64,000 bases of DNA from Halorubrum trapanicum. Lineage in GTDB: Archaea > Halobacteriota > Halobacteria > Halobacteriales > Haloferacaceae. This document shows, one piece after another, positions 10,899 through 13,191 of the stretch. The notes below the pieces were generated by a model, which saw only the letters and a list, made by a program, of their open reading frames with translations, did no database searches and was not told the origin of the DNA. The translations under genes and the position numbers were made by a program. The DNA lies in NCBI RefSeq assembly GCF_017873555.1, contig NZ_JAGGKE010000004.1:1-64000 (forward strand). The letters run 5' to 3'. How positions within the stretch are numbered: position 1 is the stretch's first letter; each line of letters starts with the position of its first letter.

Positions 10899-13034
10899 AT
10901 GAGCATCGACATCGACCCGCTGCGTGAGGCCGACGGGATAACCGTCACCGACCACATCGAGAACACGCAGTTCGAGGTGTACACCGACCGCCCCGTCGAC
11001 CCGCGCCCGCGCCCCGAGTCGGACCACTACTTCCCGGTCGACGCGGGCGTCGCGGTCGAGACCGGATCGATCGAGATCCCCCGCGTCGCGGTCGTCGAGA
11101 CGCGGGCCGGCGACGGAACGCTCCTCACTCACGGGGACTGTTACACGATGCCGGACGGGACGTACCACGTCGGTATCAACCCGGCACCGACGAAGCTCTA
11201 CCTCTCGTTCGAGTCCGGATTCTCCGTCTCGACGACCGACCGGACCACCCGAATCGACCTCGACACGCCCGGTAGCGTCGCTCTCGGGTTCCGGTCGCTC
11301 CATCAGACCCCGGCGGGGACGATCACCACCCCGACGGACCCGGAGTCGCTGATGGACGCCGTCTCGCTGCTCGGCTCCGCGCTCCAGACCACCAGCCCGG
11401 AGCGGTCCTTTCCGACCCTGCGGGGACACCCGCCGCTGATCGAGCCGGGCGAGGAGTTCCGCGTTCCTGACCGGGTCGAGCCGGTCGAGGGCGGGATCCG
11501 GATCGTCGTCCCGCCCGAGTACCGCTACCTCTATCCGGTGGTCTCGCTGGCGTACTACTTCGCGGCCGAGGTGGTCCCGGGCGACGCCCCGCGGATCGAA
11601 GGGAACGGCTGGACGTACCCGCTCGAACCGGGGTTCGAGGCGCGGACCGCGGCGGTGCTCAGGCAGTCGTTCCACATGGACTGTCTCGTCCGCACGGAGG
11701 GGTTCTACCCGGTCGACCTCCACGAGCGCGAGACGACCGACCTCGACCTCGACTGGGGGCGGCTGTACGACCTCCCGCTCGCCGAGCGGCTCGGCGAGTA
11801 CCTCGACGTGCCGTTCGAGGCGGTCGAGCCGGAGTTACCGCAGTGGACGCTGACGACGGACGTCCGTCCCGACCCGGAGAACGTGGAGATGCTCCCCTTC
11901 GTCGCCGGGGAGCTGTCGGTCGTTCGCTCGCCGGAGACGGTCACGCCGGTGGACGACGACGAGGGCGTCGGCGTCGGCTTCTTCGGCGGCGCGGACCGGA
12001 GCGCTCCGCAGGCGACGAGGCGGGAGATCCCGGCCGACGGCGTCGAACTCGATGGCGGCGAGTTCGTTCGGGGCGGCGCGAGCGCGGGCGCCGCGAGTGC
12101 GAGGACCACCCGCGGCGCGGGCGCTTCCGCGGACCGCGGCGCCGTCTCGGCTCAGTCCGAGTTCGTTCGGCCGGAGCCGGTCGACACCGTCGAGCACGCG
12201 TGGGTCGGCGACGGGGTTCCCCTCGACGCGAACAAGGCGACGCTCGACGCGTACCACCGCCGGCTCGAAGCGGGGCAGGTCGAGCAGTCGCGGATCTCGG
12301 TCCTCGTGGTCTGTAACGACGAGCAGATGCGCGAGGAGGGCGACGTCGCCGACCTCTACGGACTCCGCGACATGGTCCAGTTCGACATCGAGGTGCGCCA
12401 CGACCTCTCGCGCGAGGAGATGCGCGACGCCCTCGCGTCCGACGTCGACTTCCTCCACTACATCGGCCACGTCGACGACCGCGGGATGCAGTGCGCCGAG
12501 AGCTACCTCGATCTGACCGACGAGGAGCTCGAAATCGGTGTGAGCGCCTTCCTGCTCAACGCCTGTCAGTCCTACCAGCAGGGCGAGGCGCTCGTCCACC
12601 GCGGCTCGCGCGGCGGCATCGTCACCCTCTCCGACGTGGCGAACTCGCCCGCGACGACGCTCGGCCGGATCATCGCCCGCCTGATGAACAGCGGGTTTAA
12701 CCTCCGGACCGCGCTCCACGTCGCGAAGCGGGAGCTGATCACTGGTCAACAATACACCGTCGTTGGCGACGGAGGGACGACGATTTGCCAGAGTCGGAGT
12801 GGATCTGTGGTCGTGCTCGACATTTCGAACAGGTCTAGCGATTCGTGGGAGTTAACTGCGGAAATGTTTCCGAACGGCCCCTATGGGAAGGGGTCCCTTA
12901 CAAAGATAAACATGTCAGGAGAAACAGGCAATCACTACATCCCCACAAAAATATTTATAAAATCTGTTCAAAAAATAAACTTAAGAGTTTCCTTGAACTT
13001 GAGACAGTACCAATTTTTATTGACGATGAATTAA
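10899..13034 (+). CDS. CHAT-domain caspase-like protease, C-terminus frameshifted
   Basis: A 711-residue protein starting at ATG 10899. Residues 1-350 are a beta-rich region of unknown fold. A Gly/Ala/Ser-rich linker lies near 365-415. A CHAT (caspase-like, clan CD) peptidase domain occupies about 440-640. The catalytic histidine is predicted at H524 in FLHYIGH and the cysteine at C556 in LLNACQSYQQG. After about residue 640 base composition turns strongly A+T-rich. The frame ends at 13034, yet the -1 frame gives a more family-like tail (SFLELETVPIFIDDELTWSD) ending at 13063, so one A seems lost from the run near 12970. It converges on a 43-residue membrane peptide gene. A role in regulated proteolysis or defence is inferred. 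Confidence 0.85.
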   Translation: MSIDIDPLREADGITVTDHIENTQFEVYTDRPVDPRPRPESDHYFPVDAGVAVETGSIEIPRVAVVETRAGDGTLLTHGDCYTMPDGTYHVGINPAPTKLYLSFESGFSVSTTDRTTRIDLDTPGSVALGFRSLHQTPAGTITTPTDPESLMDAVSLLGSALQTTSPERSFPTLRGHPPLIEPGEEFRVPDRVEPVEGGIRIVVPPEYRYLYPVVSLAYYFAAEVVPGDAPRIEGNGWTYPLEPGFEARTAAVLRQSFHMDCLVRTEGFYPVDLHERETTDLDLDWGRLYDLPLAERLGEYLDVPFEAVEPELPQWTLTTDVRPDPENVEMLPFVAGELSVVRSPETVTPVDDDEGVGVGFFGGADRSAPQATRREIPADGVELDGGEFVRGGASAGAASARTTRGAGASADRGAVSAQSEFVRPEPVDTVEHAWVGDGVPLDANKATLDAYHRRLEAGQVEQSRISVLVVCNDEQMREEGDVADLYGLRDMVQFDIEVRHDLSREEMRDALASDVDFLHYIGHVDDRGMQCAESYLDLTDEELEIGVSAFLLNACQSYQQGEALVHRGSRGGIVTLSDVANSPATTLGRIIARLMNSGFNLRTALHVAKRELITGQQYTVVGDGGTTICQSRSGSVVVLDISNRSSDSWELTAEMFPNGPYGKGSLTKINMSGETGNHYIPTKIFIKSVQKINLRVSLNLRQYQFLLTMN

Positions 13035-13059
13035 CTTGGAGTGACGAGTTTATTATCGA

Positions 13060-13191
13060 TTAAGGACCAGGGTTCGTAGCGGCCATGTTTGCTGCCGCGG
13101 GCGCCGCCTGCGTCAACAGCAGGAGGGCGGTGAACAGGACGCCGGCCATCTTCGGGTGCTCTGCCACGTAATCTGCCACACTTTCGTGCAT
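13060..13191 (-). CDS. 43-residue hydrophobic peptide facing the CHAT gene
   Basis: This short gene reads from ATG 13191 to TAA 13060. The product has a charged N-terminus (MHESVADYVAEHPKMAG), a hydrophobic segment (VLFTALLLLTQAAPAAA) and a short polar tail ending TNPGP. It could be a single-pass membrane peptide or a short exported peptide with a signal-like core. Proteins of the form YLAEHP.M.G.LF recur in haloarchaea as I recall them, but I could not search. Its stop codon overlaps the frame-corrected end of the CHAT gene (13063) by four bases, tail to tail. The AT-rich flank upstream, with several TATA-like motifs, may hold its promoter. Confidence 0.7.
   Translation of the reverse strand: MHESVADYVAEHPKMAGVLFTALLLLTQAAPAAANMAATNPGP

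Follow-up and report, generated by a model that had tools for sequence, protein, structure and literature searches.

A convergent CHAT-type protease and small peptide gene in haloarchaea, with variable ends that diversify together

What relation, if any, does a cysteine protease have to the very small gene that meets it tail to tail? This question is raised by a locus of Halorubrum trapanicum, found in a stretch of 64,000 nucleotides (contig NZ_JAGGKE010000004.1, positions 1 to 64,000; here called the window). On its forward strand, a gene for a CHAT-type (clan CD) cysteine protease (10899..13034, with the ATG at 10899 and the stop codon ending at 13034) converges with a reverse-strand gene for a peptide of 43 residues (13060..13191). 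A sequence-only reading had noticed this pair, had linked its members by proximity, and had suggested that the hydrophobic peptide could be a substrate, partner, or inhibitor of the protease, in analogy to bacterial membrane effectors such as gasdermins. The tail-to-tail arrangement was confirmed, and the small frame was identified as a member of DUF7503 (PF24335; 73.4 bits against a curated cut-off of 27, E 1e-20). The first 80 nucleotides of the window, at the start of the contig, form a low-complexity C/G run that is probably an assembly artefact.

The protease consists of a conserved, beta-rich N-terminal domain (amino acids 1-344; 10899..11930), a catalytic CHAT domain (about amino acids 441-626; 12219..12776), and a hypervariable, AT-rich C-terminal domain (12777..13063), the putative specificity cassette. 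Its active-site residues H524 (12468-12470) and C556 (12564-12566), which the earlier reading had found intact, were invariant in 92 protease homologues. An AlphaFold2 model of the protein (mean pLDDT 88.8, pTM 0.89) matched separase (5fby, 1.5e-6), SAVED-CHAT (8tl0, 4.6e-6), and gingipain (5.4e-6) in a Foldseek search of the PDB. These proteins have the clan CD catalytic fold in common with the window protease, although whole-chain TM-scores were only 0.20-0.25. With a caspase/separase-type fold and a His-Cys dyad, the window protease is a clan CD cysteine peptidase. The CHAT label given by the earlier reading holds by fold and dyad but not by profile: the score against Pfam CHAT (PF12770) was 19 bits, below the curated cut-off of 24, and the assignment therefore rests on the first two. 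No sequence relatives were found in the PDB. The N-terminal 344 residues matched no Pfam family, and the model of this domain (pLDDT 94.1) had no PDB fold match at E <= 0.001; its invariant residues are D18, R169, L254, D261, R265, and W316. By reading, the protease lacks an obvious signal peptide.

The link that had been proposed from proximity proved to be real. Among the fetched haloarchaeal loci, 155 of the 157 DUF7503 frames were convergent with a close CHAT homologue, so that the small frame is conserved near other CHAT genes, the point on which the earlier reading had staked its proposal. Such a share greatly exceeds what chance would give. The median distance from stop to stop was about 5 bp, and many stops abutted or overlapped. 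The two exceptions were a locus with a gap of about 1 kb (L099) and one with a different arrangement (L139). A scan that started from the protease, covering 78 loci of named organisms in a set rich in Halorubrum, found DUF7503 in 73, always convergent on the opposite strand; 2 of the remaining 5 carried another peptide ending in -GP. Of 145 haloarchaeal genomes sampled, 120 had DUF7503 and 131 had the protease, Haloferax volcanii being among the carriers of DUF7503, and the pair kept the same layout in genomes from over 40 genera. When 197 genomes were sampled across the phylum, all DUF7503 matches fell in the window's own order, and the closest relatives of the window peptide in the named collection came from Halorubrum. 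Several pairs with different cores could occur within one genome.

The peptides themselves share a clear architecture. In the window, the conserved leader (codons 1-34; 13090..13191, reverse strand) contains an HP[RK]M motif, a hydrophobic segment, and a small-residue junction, and is followed by a variable core (codons 35-43, NMAATNPGP; 13063..13089, reverse strand), whose final GP is fixed in Halorubrum. Across 150 distinct DUF7503 peptides, we found an invariant leader proline, a hydrophobic stretch, a junction of small residues, and a variable tail. The peptide ended in GP in 143 of 157 cases, and most others ended in, e.g., GGTIS or GGSIY. Arg or Lys ahead of the hydrophobic stretch and an [AV]xA motif ahead of the core make the leader look like a membrane-targeting or export sequence, and where partners have a membrane segment, their orientation looks N-in/C-out. 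The codon-level constraint that the earlier reading had asked for was present: over 15 Halorubrum loci, pN/pS was 0.24 for the whole frame and 0.17 for codons 1-34. Within Halorubrum, the leader showed pN 0.041 and pS 0.244, codons 35-41 had a pN of 0.318, and the final GP showed no amino-acid change (pN 0) at a pS of 0.70. One locus (L149, genome G012) has a tandem pair of DUF7503 frames that share one core.

CHAT genes without DUF7503 often had another partner in the same position, likewise ending in -GP. The most numerous of these partners end in [VI]STY[GS]GP (e.g., -VSTYGGP), and no membrane segment is visible in them. Among close relatives, the core of this class changed only synonymously (pN 0.000), while pN/pS of the leader was 0.61, and an Arg directly preceded the core in 38 of 44 frames (a few loci having been fetched twice). 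The leaders of this class (e.g., L223-L228) are Arg-rich and fast-changing, which is unusual against the acidic proteomes of haloarchaea. In total, a partner was present for 208 of 240 CHATs (141 DUF7503 ending in GP, 13 DUF7503 with another end, 43 of the STYGGP type, and 11 other -GP peptides), a proportion inflated by the many loci that were fetched via DUF7503, and 32 of the 240 had no partner by the same test. As a background, 0.54% of unrelated frames end in GP. In two loci (L242 and L246), a candidate partner ending in TYSGP or EYRGP lies downstream of the CHAT gene on the same strand.

A third form of the peptide was found in Haloplanus, to which the genus of G080 was assigned on the grounds that L391, a named Haloplanus MAG, and L411 share one and the same peptide. 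Of the 12 genomes (species) of this genus, 3 carried the transmembrane DUF7503 form with one core each (SNGGGISGP in L407, GNSGAISGP in L409, and SNGAATSGP in L410), and 9 carried arrays of 2-14 copies of a core (L400-L406, L408, and L411). The array of L408 is partly masked, leaving its leader and copy number unread; none of the 8 arrays readable in full had a transmembrane leader. The 13 cores in L400 differed only synonymously (pN 0.000, pS 0.544), and pN was small in L403 (0.060) and L406 (0.030). In the 7 arrays that were tabulated, the joints between units read [YFMS][TN]AD, placing an Asp before each internal unit. These joints, and the Arg before the STYGGP core, look like cleavable junctions. 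Haloplanus arrays of near-identical cores are present in L183 and L184 as well.

Taken across these forms, conservation of the peptide lies in the 7-9 residues at its end, with -GP as the usual terminus. The sequences showed this core, rather than the membrane segment, to be the unit of selection, and the membrane leader to be replaceable. The suggestion of a gasdermin-like membrane effector finds no support, as the STYGGP class and the 8 fully read Haloplanus arrays lack a hydrophobic segment, whereas each copy of the core is retained. A membrane toxin or type I toxin-like peptide was also considered, and is weakened by the dispensable membrane segment.

The variability of the peptide core has a counterpart in the protease. 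Over 42-44 distinct Halorubrum loci, mean pairwise identity was 0.90 for the catalytic domain and 0.44 for the C-terminal domain, and GC3 was 0.52 in the C-terminal domain versus 0.93 in the catalytic domain. Along the locus, nucleotide identity started at about 0.88, lay at 0.38-0.66 for about 280 bp, and was back at 0.91 in the DUF7503 leader, while GC fell from about 0.67 to 0.41-0.55 across the variable stretch. The Halorubrum core and C-terminal domain form an AT-rich variable cassette, about 300 bp long and bordered by conserved sequence on both sides. Comparing two of these loci (L034 and L287), pN was 0.004 and pS 0.16 in the catalytic domain, against 0.39 and 0.85 in the C-terminal domain, and therefore allele replacement fits better than point mutation. 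In the window, GC drops to 0.33 within the segment for this domain, and the reading frame of the protease is shifted: compared with its Halorubrum sibling L047, a single nucleotide is lost in an A-run just after position 12970 (12970..12975, forward strand). Read in the frame of L047, the protease gene would run on to 13061-13063 and overlap the DUF7503 stop. The deletion is either a sequencing error or a recent mutation.

Within Halorubrum, core distances tracked C-terminal-domain distances when catalytic distances were controlled for (partial Mantel r 0.27, p 0.0002), did not follow catalytic-domain distances, and showed no link to an equally variable linker of the protease (r 0.04, p 0.27). 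The DUF7503 leader, in turn, followed the catalytic domain (r 0.60) rather than the C-terminal domain. The link between core and C-terminal domain was also seen in 139 loci from outside Halorubrum (r 0.27, p 0.001), and in genus g24 both pairs of loci with the same core had a common C-terminal type. The shuffles of the Mantel tests leave some relatedness in. Hypervariability of the C-terminal domain extended to g24, g34, g9, and g39, whereas the domain varied far less in g22, Haloferax, g21, g2, and Haloplanus. At STYGGP loci, where the core is nearly constant, this domain was 0.95 identical at a catalytic identity of 0.98. Over 11 groups, divergence of the C-terminal domain and of the core were correlated (rho 0.67, p 0.024); normalizing by catalytic divergence gave a rho of 0.82, in which the ratios share a denominator.

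Since core and C-terminal domain are adjacent in the DNA, linkage could be a source of their co-inheritance. The part of the C-terminal domain furthest from the core correlated with it at 0.265, versus 0.207 for the nearest part; the difference is small, and that the furthest part correlates at least as well counts against plain linkage. Residue-level covariation between core and protease was suggestive but not clean: the two strongest core pairs fell in the C-terminal domain, while many columns of the N-terminal domain were ranked as well. Together, the comparisons of loci showed that, as far as sequences can tell, the small gene constantly accompanies the protease, and that its core and the protease C-terminal domain diversify together as a cassette. 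That the peptide is a substrate or partner of the protease, as had been proposed, is still the kind of relation with the best support.

We consider it somewhat more probable than the reverse that the two genes form a dedicated pair of protease and propeptide, which works like agr and whose specificity diversifies by allele replacement. In this reading, the peptide core would be recognized by the protease C-terminal domain, and the invariant His/Cys site would cut the precursor at the junction between leader and core, with candidate cut points after the Arg of the STYGGP class, after the Asp that precedes internal array units, and after the [AV]xA of DUF7503. The short peptide set free may act as a strain- or species-specific signal or regulate the protease itself; signal, protease regulator, and part of an allorecognition switch are all three possible outputs of the released core. 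In the DUF7503 form, the core may end up outside the cell, given its export-like leader. As the CHAT protease has no signal peptide and these partners look N-in/C-out, an exported core would meet a cytosolic protease only before export or after re-import, a point against this reading. The convergent 3′ ends would bring the two recognition parts next to each other, and a single short recombination event could then replace both.

Several other explanations share part of this evidence. The intact peptide could instead restrain a harmful protease, as its self-specific inhibitor or tether, and the protease would be unleashed when the peptide is lost or mismatched after cell fusion. One-to-one cognate pairing with co-diversification fits such a safety catch, as do genomes in which several pairs differ in their cores, and the protease active site that is always intact. 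Haloarchaea, moreover, mate via cell fusion, which is more efficient within species (PMC5496957), and mating barriers still to be discovered have been invoked (PMC12186497). However, up to 14 cores separated by [TN]AD spacers resemble a precursor more than an inhibitor, and some CHAT genes lack a recognized peptide, and we regard this explanation as unlikely. We find it more doubtful again that the core is a pheromone matured by another protease and re-imported, with CHAT serving only as its intracellular receptor, as in Rap-Phr. The occurrence of several cognate pairs per genome, the C-terminal position of the core, and the signal-peptide-like [AV]xA junction of DUF7503 would all agree with this, but no export leader is visible in the STYGGP and array forms, and no peptide importer was found among the recurrent neighbours, the annotation of which was non-exhaustive.

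A gasdermin-like switch, in which CHAT cuts the small membrane peptide and thereby causes membrane damage, is suggested by a protease adjoining a hydrophobic peptide and by the occurrence of fungal CHAT-type proteases with gasdermins (PMC12881547). It is made very improbable by the STYGGP class and the readable Haloplanus arrays, which keep the core without a membrane segment, and by the partner, which matches DUF7503 only and no gasdermin family. Finally, the pairing could be functionally meaningless, an artefact of 3′ ends that lie in a recombination-prone or relaxed region. While the genes do abut and composition shifts at their 3′ ends, we hold this to be highly improbable: the layout recurs in genomes from over 40 genera, GP stays fixed despite high synonymous change, 13 arrayed cores show zero amino-acid change, and the STYGGP loci combine the same layout with a conserved C-terminal domain.

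The proposed protease-propeptide pair can be set beside several known systems. In agr, a hypervariable region spans the protease, precursor, and receptor genes and gives rise to specificity groups (PMC12312760). The haloarchaeal pair likewise combines a protease with a small precursor that has a core of 7-9 residues, and the two share a joint hypervariable segment. It differs in that a CHAT-type protease replaces AgrB, the core lies at the very C-terminus, the genes are convergent, and the system is archaeal; neither the window protease nor its neighbours matched AgrB, AgrC, or AgrA, recurrent neighbours having been examined in part. Rap-Phr and other RRNPP systems have multiple effector-peptide gene pairs per genome and a C-terminal core in a small precursor, and both of these features are found in the CHAT-peptide pairs. 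Here, however, the effector is a clan CD protease and not a TPR protein (no TPR match in Pfam was found for the window locus), the genes are convergent, and some precursors have no export leader. The multi-copy propeptide of yeast alpha-factor resembles the Haloplanus arrays in its tandem identical cores and short spacers, but the arrays are archaeal and without a visible secretion signal. Bacterial and fungal gasdermin-protease pairs combine a protease and its partner at one locus, and those of fungi serve allorecognition (PMC12881547). The likeness of gasdermin-protease pairs such as HET-Q1/HET-Q2 is limited to a protease beside a partner: in haloarchaea there is no gasdermin, the membrane segment is dispensable, and DUF7503 has about 43 residues. 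In addition, het-Q1 and het-Q2 are idiomorphs, unlike the matched CHAT-peptide pair on one chromosome.

In the open-access literature, we found no description of the pair, of DUF7503, or of CHAT-domain proteins in haloarchaea, a negative that carries little weight given this scope. The pair looks like a peptide-recognition system that has not been described before. If true, this would be a case of protease-peptide recognition with a specificity code readable from sequence, in a genetically tractable model, and a natural test bed for the co-evolution of proteases and peptides. More tentatively, and with a probability well short of even, haloarchaea may use it for peptide-based self-recognition, exchanging matched protease and peptide alleles as a cassette to tell kin from non-kin, in signalling or in the control of cell fusion. 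Such a system could also account for the caspase-like activity of H. volcanii, an orphan that is strong (LEVDase) and without a known gene (PMC3615174). Bearings on the gene behind this activity, and on how haloarchaea tell their own kind in cell fusion and mating (PMC5496957), are speculation.

With regard to its wider context, a phage origin of the locus was rejected, as 50,697 phage records contained no relative of the protease and none was confirmed in a scan of viral contigs. A defence island was rejected as well, as PADLOC gave no match to known anti-phage defence. In 58 loci, the CHAT gene is preceded upstream by a DUF7504 gene, almost without exception in the same orientation; the one in L215 (L215:171-1409), for example, also has HalOD1. 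DUF7504, with or without HalOD1, was rejected as a third component: none lies upstream of the window CHAT, and none of the 7 DUF7504 matches in the window genome is on the window's contig. L215 also carries two tandem CHAT genes, and L241 has two frames ending in TYSGP. A single genome (G124; L185, L190, L191, L193, and L197-L202) contains many divergent CHAT genes, several with -GP partners that include a hydrophobic stretch; in some of these partners, a few residues follow the GP.
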